A DNA stretch of 64,000 nt from Rhizopus arrhizus (Eukaryota > Mucoromycota > Mucoromycetes > Mucorales > Rhizopodaceae), in assembly GCA_024220505.1 (NCBI GenBank), contig JAKZZE010000001.1, positions 2,356,001-2,420,000 of the forward strand. The letters are read 5' to 3'. Positions 17,412 to 29,208 of the stretch are shown piece after piece (position 1 is the stretch's first letter; each line of letters opens with the position of its first letter). The position numbers were made by a program, and so were the translations under genes. Under the pieces are notes generated by a model, which saw only the letters and a program-made list of their open reading frames with translations, had not been told where the DNA came from and ran no database searches.

Positions 17412-18458
17412 ATGTCTAGCTGCAATGGCTGTGGAGTCAGCTATCGAGCAGCTACTATGAAATCTATCGTCCTTTCTTGCCTTCCTGCTTCCTCTCACAT
17501 GTCTCCCATTGAGGAGAATACCGAAACTTCCAGACACAATAATGAAACTTCGACTAGCTCACCGAACTCACCCAGTGAAGATATCCACACTCTGTTAAGC
17601 ATGATCCAACGCCTCACCAACGAGCTTGCCGCTGCCAGATCCGAAATCGAACAACTTCGTGCAACTACCGTACAGCTACAAAATCAGTTAAATCAGGTAC
17701 ACCCAACCACCAATCAGCCTACAAGCACCTTAACAGCAAACGTTCAATCTTCACTTGATTTTCCAGAACTCACCACATTTTCCACACCTTGGCGTAACCC
17801 CGAACAGATCAGTCGACTCAAAGAGGGTTTGCTACAGAAACAGAAACAAAGACGTCAACAACGCCAGGAAGCTGCTGCAAGACTTCTACAACCACTATCA
17901 AAGAACCAGGGCTTTCAGTATCTCTACCTTCCGACCAAGGCGCGAGTTCCTGTTGGACAACTACGATCTTGACTGCGTAAACTTGACATCAATAACAACC
18001 GCATCCTCGATATACACTATCCTGATCGAAATGTCGTCGCTCTCTTGGTACACAATGACTATGCAGATGAACTTAGATCCCACCTCAGGAAATTCAAGGT
18101 TACCTTGAAAGACGACTTTGATCCCTGCGATCCTATGATCCTACGTGACCCTAGATACTCTGATTCTACAACTGAGGAACGAACTAACATTGTATTCATG
18201 CACCATTGTAACCGTATGGAACGCGCACTCAGATTTGTCCGTGCTCCAGTCAAATTTGCTGTAGCACGCTATTTCCATACTAAAGGCTGGATCAGTACAC
18301 AGACCTTGCAGGAGATCCTTTCCTTTAATCATCGTGTTAATCACACGCAACCTGAATCCATTTTCTTCGAAGTTGATAATATGAGTACTGTGGAAGACCA
18401 TAATGACACCCAGTCACACCTCACAGTATCCCATATGGAAGATGATCCTTCCTTATGA
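17412..18458 (+). pseudogene. LINE-A ORF1 (coiled-coil protein, frameshifted)
   Basis: The first frame (17412-17972) encodes a Ser/Thr-rich N-terminus with CNGCGVSY, then a clear coiled coil (IHTLLSMIQRLTNELAAA continuing to QLQNQLNQV), then a basic Gln/Arg stretch. The reading continues in another frame from about 17970 to 18458 (LDINNNRILDIHYPDRNVVA to EDDPSL), so one frameshift near 17970 breaks the protein. ORF1 proteins of LINEs bind RNA and trimerise through coiled coils; that role is inferred. The ATG coincides with the GATGTC of the flanking target motif, so the element carries essentially no 5' UTR. The stop TGA overlaps the start of ORF2 as ATGA. Confidence 0.7.
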
Positions 18459-20306
18459 GTACCATTAAGATTTCTCTTTTCAACGCTACCGGCTTGGCTC
18501 GCCAATCCCTCAGTCCAATCCTTAATATAGTTCAATCCTCCTCTGTTCTCCTTGTAACGGAGACATGGCTCTTAAGCCCGCTTAAATACCCTACGCATTG
18601 GAAACAATTTCACACTTATGATGTTAAAACACAACCTCTAGCCACGAAGGGACATCAAGGCATTTGTCTCCTAGTTAACCCTAACTGCAACTACCATGTC
18701 CATCATCTTGCCCAACAAGAATCACCGCTCAGCCAATATAAGTTATCCTTTACAATCGCAAATATATTGGTACACTGCCTATATCTCCCACCTCACCTGA
18801 GTAATCAGACTGTCAAGTTCATCCTGGACTCTTTGCCAACAACAAATGCACATACCAACCAAACGATTCTCTGTGGCGACTTCAACGCTCGACTGGGAAC
18901 CCACACAGGAGACCACCTTACAAATTCTAGGGGTAACCTGCTAACCAGTTGGATACAGCAAAATAATATCATCATATGGAATCAGAGTCTGGCTTTCGGA
19001 CAACCTACTTACTTGTCACACCGGGGAAGTAGCATTATTGACCTGTTTATGAGCAACACTGAGCTTATTGAACCTTCAATGACAATTCATCATGATCTAT
19101 CCTTAGATTCAAATCATAAATTAGTTTCCTTTTCGTTTCAGGCTACGGCTGATGTTTCTCGACTTACGAGGCATCCTCAATATACTTGGCATCTCGGTAA
19201 GCTCAGAGATCCCAACAAATGCAAGACCTACGTCGAGCGCTTTCGTGAACTTTCAGAGTCATTGCTACACTTTGACGGCACGCATATTCCCTAACGAATC
19301 CACTTGCCGCAATTGCTTACATTGAACAATTTAACAACGACCTCTGTCAAGCAATACACACTGCCCTAGATGAGACTTGCGGTAGAGTAACAAACCCCGG
19401 GGATCTCATACGTGATTTTTGGACAAATGAGCTACAAGCTGCCATTGACTTTAGGGAACTCTGCTACAGAAAATGGCGTAAGGCACAGGGTCTCAACAAG
19501 CTACACTACTGGTTACAACACCAAGAAGCTCGTGCTACTGTCAGGCGACTAATCACCCAACGTCGAAGAGCTACTTGGAAGGATTTCTGTAAGCGACTTG
19601 CATCCTACGACTATACCAAAGCAATTTCGAAGATCAGCCGTATTCGCAAAAACCGTACGCTGAAACCTACCTTCTCGACACTGGAAGGCCCGCAGCATGC
19701 TGCTGACACAATGGCAAGTCACTTAGAGAAAATCTTCTCAGGTGCCCATCAAAGGACAGTGCAGTGCAACGAAATTACTACTCCAGCTTTACCTTTCGCT
19801 GTAGAATGTCCCATCACTGCGGACGACATATCCTCAGCTATTCGATCACTGCCTGTTAAGAAGGCCCCCGAGGTAGATCACTTGCGCATTGAAATGCTAC
19901 ACCCTATACAGCATCTCTTACAGCCGCTTCTTCTCCACCTGTTTCAATTGAATTGGGCCTGGTCCTATGTCCCTCAGCCTTGACATGTCGCACAGGCCGT
20001 CCCAATCCATAAAAAGGGCTCTCCATCAGACCCAGGTAACTACCGTCCAATTAGCTTAACTACAATTTTTAGAAAAATCCTGGAACGTTGTATACAACAT
20101 ACATTGAGAAGCGAAGGACCACCACTGGATATAGCGCAAGGAGGTTTTCGTGAATCTCGTAGTGCCTTGGACCAAGCTATATGTCTTTCTGAAATCTGTC
20201 AAATACTACGCTCACAATTTCGCATCACTCCGGTCTTAGCATTTCAAGATATCAAATCTGCCTATGCTACGGTTAACCGCAACTTTATTTGGAAAACTCT
20301 TAGTTA

Positions 20307-21807
20307 CAGTTAGCGCAACACTAAAGGGCGGTTTTAAAATTCTCAATAGGCGGATTGTTTTTTTTCCAAAGGGCGGTTTTTGTTTTCTCAAAGGGCGATT
20401 ACAATTTTCTCAAAGGGCGGTCCCTTCGATCCTCAGTAGATATTTTTTACAGTTGTTTGTGACATTTTATTAGATAGGATTGCCTTTTAAGCAATCTTCA
20501 AATATGTTTACCGAATGTTGTACAAATGCTCGAAGATGTTCTGGAGGAACATTATTGCAAGCCTCACTTATTCTTGTTGATAAATCCTCTTTAGTTTGAA
20601 ATTGACTACGTTTGACCTTATTTTTAACTATGGACCAAAATTGCTCAATAGGATTAAGTTCAGGCGAGTAAGGAGGGAGATAAATGCACTTATATCCTCT
20701 CTCTGTCACCATAGTATCAATCTCGTTAGGTATATGGATTGGTGCATTATCCATAACTATATAATATCCTTTCATTTCCGGAATGCAATCCATTTCATCC
20801 ATTGTTTTCTGAATAAAATTCATATAATGGCCAGTGACAGTTCCTTTGGAGGCAGGCTTCTTTGGTTTTGATGGTGCTTTTCTTTTGCGATTACCAGAAT
20901 CGATTTTTAGCCTTTTGAATGTGTGTTCCTGAGGATTTCGAAGCTCCATTGACACGACATACTTCGCCGAGATTGCACCCAAAACTGTGTGTGATACTGC
21001 TCTGGTGGTAGGAGTGATTACAATAGCTGGTGTGCCCTTAATAGACCATCCTCCTGGAGGTCTCATATTGATATCGAAAGCTGATTCATCAACAAAAACA
21101 CAATTTTCAAGGTAATCCATATCTGTTTTGCTCCACTTCTCAACCCACGCTATGCGGTTTGTAATTTTGATTGGATCGTTTCTGGGAGCTGGATGACGAG
21201 TGATTTTTTTGAATGAAAGGTTGCATTCTGTTTTGAGGAAACTTCTCACACTTGATTCTTTCAGTGTGAATGATTCGAATTTTTCAGTAAGTGAACAAAC
21301 TGCATCCACAACCCTGGCTTGAGGATTACTGTCATAAAATTTAAAAGGTGAATCTTATGCTTCTCATCAAGCTGGACTGCTGATTTATTGATTTTATTGG
21401 TTTGTTTTTCGAAGATATTCCAATCTTTATCCTCTTTCAGTCTCCTAGCCCATTTCTGTGCAGTTCTTTCAGCAACACCGCCTGCTAATCTACCAGATTT
21501 GGCAGCATTGAACAACTTAATCCTATTGTAGTAGACAAAAAGCAGTTTCTGATCATTGGTGTAGTTGTTATAACTCCTACCACTATTGATCTTTACGTTA
21601 GTGGCAATCTCCTCCATCTCGGCATCTAAGGCTTCCATCTCAGTGTCCTTCTGCTCTGTATTTTGCTTCTCGCAGTAAAGTCGAAGACGAGTTAATGTTT
21701 TTAGATGGAAGGGGTTAATCTCTTCTTCACATTCCATCGCATCGCGCCCATTTTCATCACAAATGTTTCCCTGGTCATCTTCATAAAAAAGTATGTACTC
21801 ATTTAAC

Positions 21808-21884
<77 letters not shown>

Positions 21885-21892
21885 ATATACCG
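20307..21892 (-). repeat. Left arm of the composite transposon
   Basis: Inverted copy of 23470-25079. Compared with the right arm it lacks one 22-bp subterminal repeat unit and two single bases (one in an A run near 21785-21790, one in a run near 21340), which fully accounts for the 24 bp length difference. The 70-base A tract at 21813-21882 has exactly the same length as the 70-base T tract of the other arm. Confidence 0.85.
20470..21802 (-). pseudogene. DD34E transposase, frameshifted copy
   Basis: Same gene as the intact one at 23560-24894, on the opposite strand. The C-terminal 279 residues, including FVDESAF, the DNAPIH block and YSPELNPIEQFW, are unchanged. Two one-base deletions break it: one in the A run six codons after the ATG (six A instead of seven), and one in the run near 21340 that in the other copy encodes LLNFYDS. 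The protein is therefore not made full length from this arm. Identity elsewhere shows the duplication is very young. Confidence 0.85.
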
Positions 21893-22905
21893 TGTTTTTG
21901 GGGAACAAGTGCTCAAGGATTTGTTAGTGTCAAATTCAAACGCTACTCAGCAAAGTGCCACACGATACCCCGAATTTTACCAATAATGACTTTATGGAAA
22001 TGGTGAATGTTGTATCCGCTGTTGACGAGGAGGATATGTCTCCAAAAAGTGCCAAGCTCCGCCTCTTGACTCTGGCCACTAGCATGAATCAATTCAAGTC
22101 TAATATTGTCGAAGGCATTGCTGATTTGTAAATATTGTAGTGTGGTAAAGAAAAGTGCGTCTAAGTACTAATATCCTTCCTCATCTATTTTCATTGTAGG
22201 TTGGTGTAACTACCGTTTGACCCCATCGCAGACAAGAACCAATTTGGAGAAGTAGACATACAAACCAGGTATTGTGATCCATTGCTGTCGTCCATTGTGG
22301 CAGATACTACGAGGAAGGTTATATTACGATGGCCGAACAAGGAGGACACAATGACCACTGGCATTTGTCCGGACGCCATTGTATCCACCTTGGTCCAACG
22401 TGCATTTGGGCAATCCCTTGGTTTTGGAGAAGTCAAGCTTGGCGGTGACAACACCACCAATCATTCCCTTTGCTTGGACACGCTCAAGCTCGCCGTCTTG
22501 TCGCGCAACAGCGTCTTGAAGTATGGCCATCCTATTCTCACTTTTCAAGTTAATGATAAGAAGGAAAATATTGCTACAGTGTTTATGGATCATAACCATT
22601 TCACAATGCTTTGTAGGATTTCAATTAGTTTTTTATATGACACAAATGATACATAGCAGTTTCTTTACCATGACAGAAATTGGCCGCATCACCCTTTTAT
22701 TTTGGCATTGCTGTTACCAAGCAGATTCATCACCATCTGTCGTTGCACCTGTCAGCACGCCATCCCCCACATCCCCCAAAGTTGCATATCCAATCGACAC
22801 CTCAACATTTTCTCCCTCTGCAAGTTCCCATACCACACAATTATTCCAGATGATTAACAATACCACCTCGAGGTATCGTGACTGTAGCATCCAATATAAA
22901 TAAAA
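21893..22905 (+). pseudogene. Cargo gene fragment with a possible PD-(D/E)xK nuclease motif
   Basis: Between the arms lies sequence with coding character in plus frames: EQVLKDLLVSNSNATQQSA, then in a shifted frame NDFMEMVNVVSAVDEEDMSP, then from about 22215 DPIADKNQFGEVDIQTRYCD onward to about 22550, and a last exon-like piece GFQLVFYMTQMIHSSFF with TEIGRI. A segment reads CPDAIVST, then about 14 residues later LGFGEVKLGG. The order P-D, spacer, E-x-K is the signature of PD-(D/E)xK nuclease folds. It resembles an expanded hypothetical family I associate with Mucorales genomes, also seen at 29386-31583. Frameshifts and missing splice sites suggest a pseudogene. The function is an inference. 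Confidence 0.45.
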
Positions 22906-22935
22906 TTCATGCTATCAAATACATTTTTACGACTA

Positions 22936-23345
22936 AAAGTATTTGGACAAAGTGACCAAATAAAAAAAAACCGATTTAGCATGACTTAAATTTGTGCCTT
23001 GCATTTCTTCTCTCTGTCATTTCTTCATCAGAAGTAGTATATTCATCTACATATTGTATACTTGCTGGTTTGGTTGATATGAAATAAATGACGTTGCTTG
23101 TTAAATCGAAACTATTTAGTAAAATTGTAAATGAAAGAAAAATAGTCTTAGATAGTTGTGGATCTCAAATGGTTTTAAAATAGTCTTGAAACTTTACTAA
23201 TCTGTCTTGTGCCTGTTCCTAAAACGTACCAACATTTTCTTAACTTGTCCCAGCGAAGCTTTTATTCATCTCAAACTAATTCAAAATCGTCTCACTAAAA
23301 AATTTACCCGTCCCAGCAGAAAAAAAGTGCGTCCAAATATTTATT
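22936..23345. mobile_element. Possible MITE or decayed Tc1 remnant inside the cargo
   Basis: AAAAGTATTTGGACAAAGTG at about 22936 is mirrored imperfectly by GTGCGTCCAAATATTTATT near 23325-23345. Ends of this kind (AAAGTATTTGGAC) are common on Tc1-like elements. The 400 bp between them are AT-rich and have no gene. It may be an old non-autonomous element carried inside the composite. Confidence 0.35.
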
Positions 23346-23477
23346 CAAAACCCAGTACATAAAGAAAGTGTCATACTGAATTTGTGCCGATTGAATTGAA
23401 AGAAAGGGTGTATTACGTGACTGTAAGAGTCCCATTTTTCTCAAAAGGCGGATTTTTCAAATTGTAGGGCGGTATAT

Positions 23478-23554
<77 letters not shown>

Positions 23555-23559
23555 GTTAA

Positions 23560-24894
23560 ATGAGTACATACTTTTTTTATGAAGATGACCAGGGAAACAT
23601 TTGTGATGAAAATGGGCGCGATGCGATGGAATGTGAAGAAGAGATTAACCCCTTCCATCTAAAAACATTAACTCGTCTTCGACTTTACTGCGAGAAGCAA
23701 AATACAGAGCAGAAGGACACTGAGATGGAAGCCTTAGATGCCGAGATGGAGGAGATTGCCACTAACGTAAAGATCAATAGTGGTAGGAGTTATAACAACT
23801 ACACCAATGATCAGAAACTGCTTTTTGTCTACTACAATAGGATTAAGTTGTTCAATGCTGCCAAATCTGGTAGATTAGCAGGCGGTGTTGCTGAAAGAAC
23901 TGCACAGAAATGGGCTAGGAGACTGAAAGAGGATAAAGATTGGAATATCTTCGAAAAACAAACCAATAAAATCAATAAATCAGCAGTCCAGCTTGATGAG
24001 AAGCATAAGATTCACCTTTTAAATTTTTATGACAGTAATCCTCAAGCCAGGGTTGTGGATGCAGTTTGTTCACTTACTGAAAAATTCGAATCATTCACAC
24101 TGAAAGAATCAAGTGTGAGAAGTTTCCTCAAAACAGAATGCAACCTTTCATTCAAAAAAATCACTCGTCATCCAGCTCCCAGAAACGATCCAATCAAAAT
24201 TACAAACCGCATAGCGTGGGTTGAGAAGTGGAGCAAAACAGATATGGATTACCTTGAAAATTGTGTTTTTGTTGATGAATCAGCTTTCGATATCAATATG
24301 AGACCTCCAGGAGGATGGTCTATTAAGGGCACACCAGCTATTGTAATCACTCCTACCACCAGAGCAGTATCACACACAGTTTTGGGTGCAATCTCGGCGA
24401 AGTATGTCGTGTCAATGGAGCTTCGAAATCCTCAGGAACACACATTCAAAAGGCTAAAAATCGATTCTGGTAATCGCAAAAGAAAAGCACCATCAAAACC
24501 AAAGAAGCCTGCCTCCAAAGGAACTGTCACTGGCCATTATATGAATTTTATTCAGAAAACAATGGATGAAATGGATTGCATTCCGGAAATGAAAGGATAT
24601 TATATAGTTATGGATAATGCACCAATCCATATACCTAACGAGATTGATACTATGGTGACAGAGAGAGGATATAAGTGCATTTATCTCCCTCCTTACTCGC
24701 CTGAACTTAATCCTATTGAGCAATTTTGGTCCATAGTTAAAAATAAGGTCAAACGTAGTCAATTTCAAACTAAAGAGGATTTATCAACAAGAATAAGTGA
24801 GGCTTGCAATAATGTTCCTCCAGAACATCTTCGAGCATTTGTACAACATTCGGTAAACATATTTGAAGATTGCTTAAAAGGCAATCCTATCTAA
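23560..24894 (+). CDS. DD34E transposase (IS630-Tc1-mariner group), intact
   Basis: A 444-residue protein with no interruption. The N-terminal third is acidic, followed by a helix-turn-helix-like region (SGRLAGGVAERTAQKWARRL), then the catalytic core. The three acidic residues are in FVDESAFDINMRPPGGWS (first D), IVMDNAPIHIPNEI (second D) and YSPELNPIEQFWSIVKN (E); 34 residues separate the second D from the E. The basic segment GNRKRKAPSKPKKPAS sits between the first and second D. The ATG at 23560 lies 10 bp after the 70-base T tract, which would act as the 5' flank. Transposases of this group cut both strands at TA target sites. Because both outer ends of the composite match this gene's own 3' flank, it could mobilise the entire unit. 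Confidence 0.88.
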   Translation: MSTYFFYEDDQGNICDENGRDAMECEEEINPFHLKTLTRLRLYCEKQNTEQKDTEMEALDAEMEEIATNVKINSGRSYNNYTNDQKLLFVYYNRIKLFNAAKSGRLAGGVAERTAQKWARRLKEDKDWNIFEKQTNKINKSAVQLDEKHKIHLLNFYDSNPQARVVDAVCSLTEKFESFTLKESSVRSFLKTECNLSFKKITRHPAPRNDPIKITNRIAWVEKWSKTDMDYLENCVFVDESAFDINMRPPGGWSIKGTPAIVITPTTRAVSHTVLGAISAKYVVSMELRNPQEHTFKRLKIDSGNRKRKAPSKPKKPASKGTVTGHYMNFIQKTMDEMDCIPEMKGYYIVMDNAPIHIPNEIDTMVTERGYKCIYLPPYSPELNPIEQFWSIVKNKVKRSQFQTKEDLSTRISEACNNVPPEHLRAFVQHSVNIFEDCLKGNPI

Positions 24895-24942
24895 TAAAAT
24901 GTCACAAACAACTGTAAAAAATATCTACTGAGGATCGAAGGG

Positions 24943-25066
24943 ACCGCCCTTTGAGAAAATTGTAACCGCCCTTTGAGAAAATTGTAATCGCCCTTTGAGA
25001 AAACAAAAACCGCCCTTTGGAAAAAAAACAATCCGCCTATTGAGAATTTTAAAACCGCCCTTTAGT
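24943..25066 (+). repeat. Subterminal direct repeats of the composite ends
   Basis: Copies of a motif that reads, on the minus strand, TTCTCAAAGGGCGG, spaced about 22 bp: three near-perfect units, then diverged ones (CCAAAGGGCGG, CTCAATAGGCGG, CTAAAGGGCGG) towards the end. The left arm at 20321-20425 has one unit fewer. Arrays of this sort are usually transposase-binding sites. Confidence 0.7.
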
Positions 25067-26693
25067 GTTGCGCTAACTGTAATATATCTCGCCTCCTTTA
25101 TTAGGCCTATTACGTAATCTTTTCGATGATGTCCAAATCGAAGTACTACTCTCTAATGCCACTTCTCGTCGATTCCGTCCAAATACAGGAGTTTTACAGG
25201 GATCCATACTCTCACCATATCTTTATTCGGTATACATTAACCAACTACCAGCTCAAATACGGCCCCAAGCATTTCCCTCAAGCTCGTTACCGTTGGAAAT
25301 GATACCGTCCCTGAACTGCTTACTCTATGCCGACGACGTAGTTCTCATCGCCGAACGCTCAAATCTGGTTGATCTATTGCGAAAATGCGAAAACCACAGT
25401 ATATAAATGGGATACAAATGGAACTCATCCAAATGCGTGATTTTGGACAGTAGCACAGATCCAATTACATACACCCTTTATGATCAGCCATTATCAAGAG
25501 AAACCACTTTTGCGTATCTTGGCGTGCCCTTCAAGCCTGGTGTGCGTCTCGATCCAGAGGAACTAATTCAACAGAATACCCAGAAGGCTCTTGCAACGAT
25601 GAACATACTATCATCCGTGGGCGTGAACCCTTCCGGTTTCTCCAAGCTTCTCTGCACCAGGTTTTACGTTCACATCGTTCGACCTCAGCTTGAGTACGGC
25701 TTAGCTATCAATCGCTTCACGGTCTCTCAAATTCACGCTCTAGAGGAAGCCCAAAATAATTACATCAAGAAAATATACGGTGCTCGAGGCAAAGCGTCCA
25801 CTAAGGTTATGCTCCACATGTCCAAGCTACCCCTCCTGTCGGAACAAGTCGGTATATTACAAGCACATTTCCTCTTTCGTTCTTTATATTTACCAGAAGA
25901 TGCACTGCTTGCTTGCCTGTTACCTTATATTCGCAGTACCAGAGGAAGCCAGTGATACGCCCTCTCTCGTACACCGCTTTGAAAAACGGTGCTGTCTACT
26001 ACTGACGAATCCGGCACCCGCTCATTCAAGACTGCTAAACGACGCTTCCTACAACAGAATCTAGAGATCTGCCAACGATGCCGAAACTCCAAGCTACTTT
26101 CTAACTGCCGTCGATCGATCTCTCTGGATCCTATACTCTGATTGCCCATGTCAAAGTCAGAACGTAGTCGCTGTATACGCTGGAGGCTAAGCTGGCTTCC
26201 TGGTGGCAAACCTCGGCCATGTCCCAAGCACCCAACACAATAACTCTCTAAGAACCATGTCACCAATTGCCTTGATATGCACCGACGTCTGTTTATGCCC
26301 GAAACTATACGAGATTCGTTGTCATTCCTTCTGAATATGCTTCCTCTTCGTCCTTCGGTCCCCCCCCAAACTTAGCCCTCACCTGGTCTCAGCGATGGCC
26401 GATTATACGTTCCATACTGTATGAATTAGATCAACTACACCATGACAAACTGATTCCTATTAAGTATCCCCATGGCCAAAAGCTTCTTGTATGGTTAAAT
26501 CGATTCATTTAGCTTTCCATCGATAACTATACTCAATACTTTCCTTTTACATTTTTTACCCTTGTTCCCATAAGGGGTTTTTCTTAGCATTCACTTCCAA
26601 ACGGATTGAACGGGTCCGGGCGGACATTCATTATATTATTTTATCTTTTGCGCTCATTTGGACCATAAATAAAATATCATGTTTAAACAAAGA

Positions 26694-27390
26694 AAAGATG
26701 TCGCATATAATTGTTTATTAAATAGGATGGACTGCAAATCAGTCATCAAAATGTCTAGTGGAATAGCGCGCAAATCCTTCAAAAGATGACTCGGCAGCTT
26801 GGCTGCTAGCATCTGCAATTATTTGAGGTGAATAGTATCTTTTTTGAATATAAACTCTCTTTTTATACTACTCTTAACAACAGATCAAAATTGTTCTATT
26901 GGGTTGAGTTCTAGAGAGTAATATGGCAAGTAAATTCACTTGTAGCCATGCTTTTTGATCATCTCATCAATTATTTTACCTGTATGTATGGGTGCATTAT
27001 ATATGATCAGATAATGTCCCTTCACTTCAAGAAATTTGTCCATATCAGCAAGAACGTCTTTAATTAATTGACATAGTGATTGGTTATCGTGTCCTTTGTT
27101 TGCTGCTTTTTGCCACCGGCTAGTTTTCTTTTCTTTGTAAGTGGCATGGGCTTTCTCAAGCTCATTTTAATCAAGCCTTTAGCAGAAATGGCACTCAAGA
27201 TGGAAATTGAATTGGCTCTAGCCGTAAGTACTTTGACTTTGGCAGCCTCCTCTTTTGGTGCCCAGCCCTGAGTTCTTCTCAGGTTTGCATTAAACCTGAC
27301 TCGTCGATAAAAACGCTGTTACTCATATAGTCAACGCCCATCTCTTTCACCATTTCCACCCATTGCTTTCTCGCTTGTATTCTTTCTGGA
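26694..27390 (-). pseudogene. Transposon B transposase, 3' part, broken
   Basis: Read on the minus strand from 27390 down: ARKQWVEMVKEMGVDYMSNS, then VFIDESGFNANLRRTQGW, a basic linker KKRKLAGGKK, NHYVN, HPYIQ and eventually ELNPIEQF-type sequence, ending at LTDLQSILFNKQL-like sequence near the LINE-A tail. It is a DDE transposase related to, but clearly different from, that of the composite arms (VFIDESGF versus VFVDESAF). Many stops and frameshifts. The 5' part is replaced by a LINE-B-type fragment at about 27390, and the 3' end is followed by GATGTCGCA, the subterminal motif of transposon B. Confidence 0.7.
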
Positions 27391-29208
27391 ATGTTTCTTT
27401 CTACCATGCTTTGGAACACCTTTTGCTCTCAATACTACAAGATACCCAAATGCTTGGTTTTACCTTTCAAGGGCCTTCTTTTACGGCGGGGGTTCGTACT
27501 GATTCACCAACACTCAAACTCCTAGCTTATGCTGATGATGTATGCCTTCTCTTACAAGATCAAAACGACTTTTCTCGGGCTCAACATCACATGCTACAAT
27601 ATATTTTTGTATCAAATACCAAGTTTAATATTGATAAAACTGAAACCTTCTCCTTAAACGGTAACCGTGATACTTCTTGGAACTCACTATTAACCGTGCA
27701 TAACATACCCACGTATTATTATGCTGGATCCGTACAAGCGTTTTGATACCTAGTATTTTACCTCCCTTACTGTACTATATAGCGCTAAATACTAGAAAAC
27801 CAGCTGTTATTAAAAGTAACCGCTCAATGCCAAATATATTCGCAGCGACAGGTATCAATTTTAGGACGGGTAACTATTATAAATATATTGATACTTTCTA
27901 AAATATGGTATTCTTTAAGACTACTTAGGCCGAATAAATGGTTCTTACAGCGCCTCCGGTTTGTGATATATCAATTCATTTGGCAAAAAAAGCATCCGCT
28001 CCTCAAAAAAGAAGTGATTTTTCTCTCATGGTGTCATGGTGGTTTAAAAGTGTTGGATTCAACTATACAACATCACATTCTCCAAAAACGATGGCTAAAT
28101 TACATCTTTAACTCGAATCACTATCCATCTTTTGTACATCAACTTGCTCTCAACCATCTGTCTTTGTTTCTCAACTCTTCACTTTGCTCACTAGTCCCTT
28201 TCTACTTCCCTGAATATCGTAAGAGTTACGTGTGTGACAACAACCTCCCTGTCTGACATGCTATCTTTGATGTATATGACGCTATCCATACTGATTCTAC
28301 AATTGAATTCCCAGAGTTTCCGCTAGACACTTTATTGGCCTTAACTCTCCACAAGCTTATTATACCACTTGATAGCAATCACTGGACACTCAAACATAAA
28401 ACCTTTCTCAGTGGTCAGTTTTTTGTTTATGATATTGTTCAAAAACGCCTTCATTTCCGGATTACCGGTAAATACACTCGATATCCTCGCTTGCGCCGAC
28501 AATTATATAGCGATATTTTGCAGACTCGTATCGTTAAACTACAATCTAATGTCTGACCGTATATTCTTGAAGAATTACCCTCTCCAGTTGATTGGTCTGA
28601 CCATTCTATGGTTACTAATATTATTAGTTCCACTGCATGGAAGTACTATAGCTCTCGATACTTGCGACAGATTATCCAATCCTCCTCTCCTATTACTCTG
28701 AAATACCCCTCATCGGTAGTTAAGGTCCTCTGGTCATGTTCGATATATCCAAACGCTCGTACACTATATTTTCAATGCTTCTCAAACTGTATTCCTACTA
28801 AGAAGATTCTCCTTCGCTATGGTATAGTCTCCTCCTCCGATTGTTCATTGTGTGGCAAAAGTACAGATAGTAGACGTCATTTTCTGGTTGAATGCGAAAT
28901 TAAATGGAAAATCTGGAAACAAATATTAAAGCAGTATTTTCCCACTACTAGCTTCACTTCTGAAGACATATACAAGTCAATAAGATATCTAAAAGCTCCC
29001 CCTGGTATTCCCAAAGCCAAACAATACTTCTCAGTCCTCTCTACTACCTTATACCAACTGTGGATTATTTATTGGCAACATGGAAATGATAACCCGTACC
29101 CTTATCCTCTGTCACAAATTGAAACCTGTCTCCAACGGATAGTTACTCATATTGACAACTTCCTTCCAAAAATGATTAATTTTTTCCGCCTTTTTAAATA
29201 AAAATTAC

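Follow-up and report, generated by a model that had tools for sequence, protein, structure and literature searches.

Bacterial composite transposons such as Tn5 and Tn10 carry inverted copies of an insertion sequence (IS). A comparable arrangement occurs in Rhizopus arrhizus within the stretch analysed here, a window of 64,000 nucleotides (contig C1, 2356001-2420000, within a 50.3-Mb genome), where two inverted copies of a Tc1-like element and the DNA between them split a copy of a long interspersed nuclear element (LINE), named LINE-A. In the Composite Insertions described for the maize element Ac, ends cut in S phase are inserted at an unreplicated site; the elements and their flanks are recopied, replication stops and the broken ends are fused, so that the product has a target-site duplication on its outside and a junction within (PMC4270019). 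The two segments of the maize allele P1-rr-T22 measure 14,484 and 8,754 bp and share a 4-bp microhomology (PMC4270019). Ac/Ds macrotransposons have also been described (PMC9910405, PMC3260210), IS630 composites are mentioned (PMC9977792), and Tc1-MP1 comprises DD34E Tc1 transposons of Mucoraceae and Rhizopodaceae (PMC9977792). The fungal block is likely the product of one joint jump, a kind of event known from maize; for the Tc1-like family we found none, and no natural Tc1/mariner composite insertion was named, in the literature searched (titles and abstract openings, with few subscription journals).

The block spans 4,773 bp (20307-25079) and lies between positions 20304 and 25082 of the split LINE. 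Its parts and borders are the following.

18455 to 20304, plus strand: upstream part of LINE-A, with an endonuclease frame at 18455-19294 (Pfam Exo_endo_phos_2, E 2.2e-15)
20305 to 20306, no strand: left TA of the target-site duplication, adjoining the left outer end
20307 to 20331, plus strand: outer terminal repeat of the left arm, 5 GGGCGG-type motifs within 150 bp
20307 to 21892, minus strand: left arm, Tc1-like element of 1,586 bp, 3' end outward, transposase frameshifted, inner 54 bp missing
21813 to 21882, plus strand: 70-A tract of the left arm
21892 to 21893, no strand: junction of left arm and spacer, ATATACCG joined to TGTTTTTGG, no microhomology visible
21893 to 23183, plus strand: gene part of the spacer, a decayed copy of the gene at C34:729214-730579
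23178 to 23413, plus strand: 3'-flank part of the spacer, contiguous with the end of the gene part at the C7 and C37 loci
23414 to 23415, no strand: inner TA at the 5' end of the right arm
23416 to 25079, plus strand: right arm, full-length Tc1-like element of 1,664 bp, 5' end CGTGACTG inward, 3' end outward
23480 to 23549, plus strand: 70-T tract of the right arm, mirroring the 70-A tract of the left arm
23560 to 24894, plus strand: DD34E transposase of the right arm, 444 residues, open frame, with D239, D352 and E387
25055 to 25079, minus strand: outer terminal repeat of the right arm, 6 GGGCGG-type motifs within 150 bp
25080 to 25081, no strand: right TA of the target-site duplication, adjoining the right outer end
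25082 to 25955, plus strand: downstream part of LINE-A, paralog match checked to 25282 at most

Both outer ends of the block consist of the identical 25-bp terminal repeat, which reads CAGTTAGCGCAACACTAAAGGGCGG inward, and TA stands on both outer borders, as a preliminary description of the locus had proposed. The same description held that the coding sequence of LINE-A is interrupted and resumes without other loss. Indeed, the LINE runs uninterrupted and gap-free across the insertion site in all three close paralogs (C3, C41 and C38), the only ones among 35 genome matches of LINE-A, the window aside, that are at least 95% alike (95-96% over all or part of 19200-20306). The outer termini are thus found within one target-site duplication, in a target without loss, as expected of a composite insertion. 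The site was viewed at 15 loci: the window, the three close paralogs (each twice) and more distant copies, in which it was uncovered or poorly aligned. A second reverse-transcriptase-like frame (27363-27746, with a YADDV motif recognised by eye) lies downstream and is separate from the LINE-A frames.

The near-identity of the two inverted arms was confirmed. Pairwise alignment gave no mismatch over 1,586 bases (upper 95% bound, 0.19%), and a multiple alignment of six copies (left arm, right arm, C37, C23, C29 and C5) showed one difference over the same 1,586 bases. The remaining 14 of the 15 pairs among the six copies diverge by 2.2-5.0%, the four other near copies being 2.2-4.1% from the arms. 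Three indels separate the arms, namely one 22-bp GGGCGG unit and two single bases within A-runs; the latter two could be assembly errors. One single-base A-run indel breaks the frame of the left arm's transposase, which is split into frames of 215 and 279 residues, and only the right arm has the intact 444-residue transposase previously noted. The A tract is 70 long in both arms, against 25 and 17 in two other measured copies. Because the arms show no mismatches and equal 70-A tracts, against 2.2-5.0% divergence elsewhere, they appear to share a very recent single origin. On sequence grounds, they would trace to one element very recently or would have been homogenised by gene conversion, and two independent family members are not supported.

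The transposase of the right arm matches PF13358 (DDE_3, E 6.3e-25), and 34 residues separate D352 from E387, which places its catalytic domain with the DD34E enzymes of Tc1/mariner (IS630-Tc1-mariner). The catalytic triad is kept in all 10 aligned homologs, picked among 120 listed of 544 relatives; the named relatives among those 120 are mucoralean (Rhizopus, Mucor, Circinella, Phycomyces and others). By its described features, Tc1-MP1 is similar, with DD34E, a transposase of about 440 residues (434 in Tc1-MP1) and mucoralean relatives (PMC9977792). However, the Tc1-MP1 reference has 141-bp inverted repeats at both ends, whereas the 5' end of the window element is not a copy of its 3' end (PMC9977792).

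Copies of the same family were sought in the genome, 40 of 203 candidates being scored, which covers distant or damaged copies in part. Some single elements of the family, the C23 and C37:1997739 copies, do have terminal inverted repeats at both ends. The C23 copy, complete at 1,518 bp, is bounded by the 25-bp repeat at either end and flanked by TA on each side; at the more distant C37:1997739 copy, TA is present on a single side. The right arm itself has such a repeat only at its outer end: its inner 5' end agrees with the terminal repeat in 3 of 25 positions, whereas the C23 5' end agrees in all 25. It shares this 5' end with the C29 copy, which carries the repeat at its 3' end and lies, with CGTGACTG at TA, between two TAs. 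A TA duplication is therefore seen at the outer borders of the block and around the C23 and C29 copies. The end CGTGACTG is present at two genome sites with different flanks, C29 and position 23416 of the window, and the right arm is therefore a complete C29-type element with its own inner TA. We considered and rejected a random break as the origin of this inner end, as the C29 copy stops at the same point, at TA. The 5' ends of the C37:2321820 and C1 copies were not seen within the compared stretches. The canonical repeat is thus on only the two outer of the four block ends, and GGGCGG-type motifs within 150 bp number 6 and 5 at the outer ends and 2 and 0 at the inner ones.

Contacts with other elements were also seen in this family. 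At three loci (C23:401123, C29:341892 and C32:103408), the 5' end of a family member abuts, at a shared TA, the terminal repeat TACAGTGCTTCCACTCTCAA, which belongs to another abundant family and occurs at 68 genome sites (at most 2 mismatches); the C32 family member is 67% alike. The lists were compared by eye, without statistics; with 68 sites in 50 Mb, chance contacts appear unlikely, and they would be accounted for by a target preference for TA next to the end of a different element or by movement of the two together. The C5 copy (L012 3639) is interrupted, at an internal TA, by what appears to be another Tc1-like terminal repeat, TACAGTCCTACTGTCAACTG.

The spacer comprises 1,521 bp between the left arm and the inner TA. 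It is other DNA, as previously proposed, being absent from the three close LINE paralogs and having its nearest relative on C34. Its gene part differs from C34:729214-730579 by 26 mismatches in 1,291 aligned bases (2.0%), the window copy having gaps of 2, 72 and 1 bases. The gene on C34 has two open stretches flanking a presumed intron; the window copy has one frameshift, one stop and the 72-base loss, and the cargo is therefore a decayed gene. A likeness of this gene to PD-(D/E)XK nucleases would be one of motif shape only. Pfam named no family for the spacer frames or for either stretch of the C34 gene, so that the earlier label of a nuclease-like gene fragment was not borne out.

Positions 23178-23382 match C34 elsewhere than in the gene. 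A mosaic of the C34 gene and an unrelated repeat was nevertheless rejected, as the C7 and C37 loci run contiguously across 23178 (85% over 298 aligned bases and 91% over 98, respectively). The spacer is therefore best read as one native stretch, the end of a gene with its 3' flank. It runs into the TA at the right arm, as would be expected of DNA adjoining a donor element on the 5' side. The 3' flank of the C34 gene copy (L046 2215-7517) differs from those of the window, C7 and C37 copies; on C34, a match to the window-type flank lies at least 4.6 kb off, on the other side of the gene, with an apparent reverse-transcriptase element (by eye) between. At the 21892/21893 junction, the element continues elsewhere with CCCTAC, and the C34 gene is preceded by GTGAC. 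The blunt join and the truncated left arm resemble, and would point to, break repair.

The spacer has 26 matches in its own genome (20 of 20 candidates scored) and lies between these arms in the window only. The search for this spacer between the same arms at other loci, as previously proposed, thus found no further case in the 50.3-Mb genome. Similarly, among 10 sites of the terminal repeat (at most 3 mismatches) no further pair at composite spacing was found; the two remaining pairs each bound one element, of 1,518 bp on C23 and of 1,642 bp on C37. With spacer and arms together at one place, the block is one composite insertion rather than a proliferating composite transposon. Of the earlier claim that the outer ends had moved the cargo as one unit, the part that stood is that the two outer ends act as the ends of one insertion, with the same repeat, one site and a gap-free LINE; a standing composite transposon, of which this would be the only occurrence found, did not.

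We tentatively favour, at slightly under even chances, the reading of the block as a composite insertion: two identical 3' ends would have integrated jointly at a single TA, and we predict that they came from sister copies of the same donor. The block appears closer to a Composite Insertion of the maize type than to a bacterial composite transposon, because of the shared recent origin of the arms (or their homogenisation), the one truncated arm and the internal blunt join. It shares with bacterial composites the inverted copies, the cargo between them, an intact and a broken transposase and the use of the outer ends (presumed for the block). Unlike them, the unit was found once, its cargo gene is not intact and one arm has no inner end. 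Shared with the maize insertions are a truncated arm joined to flank, a complete arm and the target-site duplication outside (PMC4270019). Maize Ac and fractured Ac (fAc) are hAT elements that make an 8-bp duplication and combine the 5' and 3' ends of two nearby elements, whereas the block has a Tc1-like element, TA and the two 3' ends of matching copies (PMC4270019, PMC9910405), and neither a donor nor a twin allele was seen. In the Sleeping Beauty 'sandwich' vector, two Tc1-like elements around a cargo are likewise moved jointly, but that vector is engineered from two complete elements, while the window arrangement is natural and has one truncated arm (PMC2874221).

How such a block might arise can be outlined. 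The donor element would have occupied a TA that lay downstream of a C34-gene paralog. With a 5' end lacking the canonical terminal repeat, the transposase would have paired the 3' ends of two sister copies instead, and the match of the altered 5' end to the repeat at only 3 of 25 positions could explain this pairing of like ends. Both 3' ends would then have been joined to the LINE TA, and copying would have proceeded inward from both sides. On the left, it would have halted 10 bases beyond the 70-A tract, which is where the left arm ends; that this tract stalled the copying is a guess. On the other side, copying would have covered the entire element plus about 1.5 kb of the adjoining 5' flank, giving the right arm and the spacer, and the two broken ends would have been joined end to end at 21892/21893. 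The implied segments are 1,586 and 3,187 bp, without microhomology. Two sister copies are suggested by the absence of mismatches between the arms, the maize cases involving two nearby elements. A 1995 paper, cited in PMC3952818, reportedly dealt, by its title, with Ds ends of sister chromatids in maize. The unequal arms and the blunt join are observed, while re-replication of either segment and the route to the two matching arms are inferred. It is possible, though rather doubtful in its full form, that this was a one-step natural Tc1/mariner composite insertion, in which the same 3' ends of two sister copies were joined to a single TA, the DNA was re-replicated inward and the broken ends were fused, so that an element whose 5' end had decayed became a unit bounded by two canonical ends and carrying captured host DNA.

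Several observations weigh against a composite insertion by sister copies. The insertion site is CA, not TA, in all three close LINE paralogs; the target TA is consequently taken from the two flanking TAs, and the window's LINE copy presumably had TA before the insertion. Gene conversion between the inverted arms could have made them match, in which case their likeness would no longer speak for a recent sister origin. The maize precedent concerns hAT elements and the 5' and 3' ends of two elements, and like-end pairing of sister Tc1-like copies appears to be without precedent in the literature consulted for comparison. The canonical C29 3' end and C23 5' end hold one GGGCGG-type motif each, so that weakness of the inner ends is not clearly indicated by the motif counts. 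Moreover, because the C29 copy carries the same non-canonical 5' end between TAs, its sequence suggests that this end is still usable. Motif counts and the TA-flanked C29 end together lower our confidence in the composite insertion slightly. Finally, the genome yielded no donor locus combining spacer and element. Of 8 genome matches to the 801 bp preceding the C34 gene part, only that at C34 is full length; 9.9 kb read at C34 contained neither the element nor the window-type 3' flank after the gene; and the 14 genome matches of the 3'-flank part included neither donor nor donor scar. It is possible that the donor was lost.

The most serious alternative is a classical composite transposon, in which a local inverted duplication at the donor preformed the inverted pair and its spacer, and the whole 4.77-kb unit was then cut and pasted into the LINE. 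This is somewhat unlikely. It accounts for the same outer ends, the TA on both sides, the matching arms and the canonical repeat being confined to the two outer of the four block ends, and inverted duplication does occur in this genome, as seen from the identical inverted pairs on C18 (893/893 bases) and C41 (3,427/3,427 bases). However, it requires two events, and neither a donor nor a second unit was found in the genome. The C18 pair (561300-562200/569250-570150) contains a fragment related to this transposase; its centre is non-palindromic, and the likeness ends about 1.2 kb further out. The C41 pair (1186321-1190285/1194931-1198895) is a LINE pair, with an apparent 5' region (by eye) of a relative of this transposon just inside one arm. 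Both figures refer to aligned bases.

The remaining explanations invoke independent or accidental events. Two independent head-to-head insertions at the same LINE TA, followed by a break in which the left element lost its inner 54 bp and the spacer was taken up as filler, and later by homogenisation of the arms through gene conversion, are improbable. The right arm is indeed a complete element with TA at both ends, and in the three contacts described above the 5' end of a family member does adjoin, at a TA, the terminal repeat of a different element. However, the touched end there is a terminal repeat, which the window elements have at their 3' end only, and 5' against 3' would give direct, not inverted, copies. 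Furthermore, the spacer stops exactly at the TA beside the right arm and is 2.0% from its nearest relative when the arms have no mismatches, and the equal 70-A tracts would require conversion across both. Aberrant gap repair, in which a single element was excised and the LINE break filled by synthesis that switched templates, drawing on copies of the element and on ectopic DNA, we regard as quite improbable. The internal blunt join and the partial left arm do resemble repair synthesis, and symmetric ends usable by a switch exist in the C23 copy; yet with a single C29-type element one border would be the 5' end CGTGACTG, whereas both outer borders are 3' ends, and a complete right inner end with TA beside the spacer is unexpected from a random switch. 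An assembly artefact that misjoined the inverted pair or the spacer is very improbable. Long inverted repeats with 70-base homopolymers are difficult to assemble, two single-base differences between the arms fall in A-runs and the assembly holds other identical inverted pairs, but a collapse is unlikely to give precise TA borders, an exact end at 23416 that recurs at C29 and a single spacer-arm combination.

If the composite insertion by sister copies is true, it would be one way for elements with a worn-out end to regain two canonical ends and carry pieces of host genes. Mucorales genomes would then be expected to repeat the pattern, with pairs of like ends, unequal inner flanks and a blunt join.

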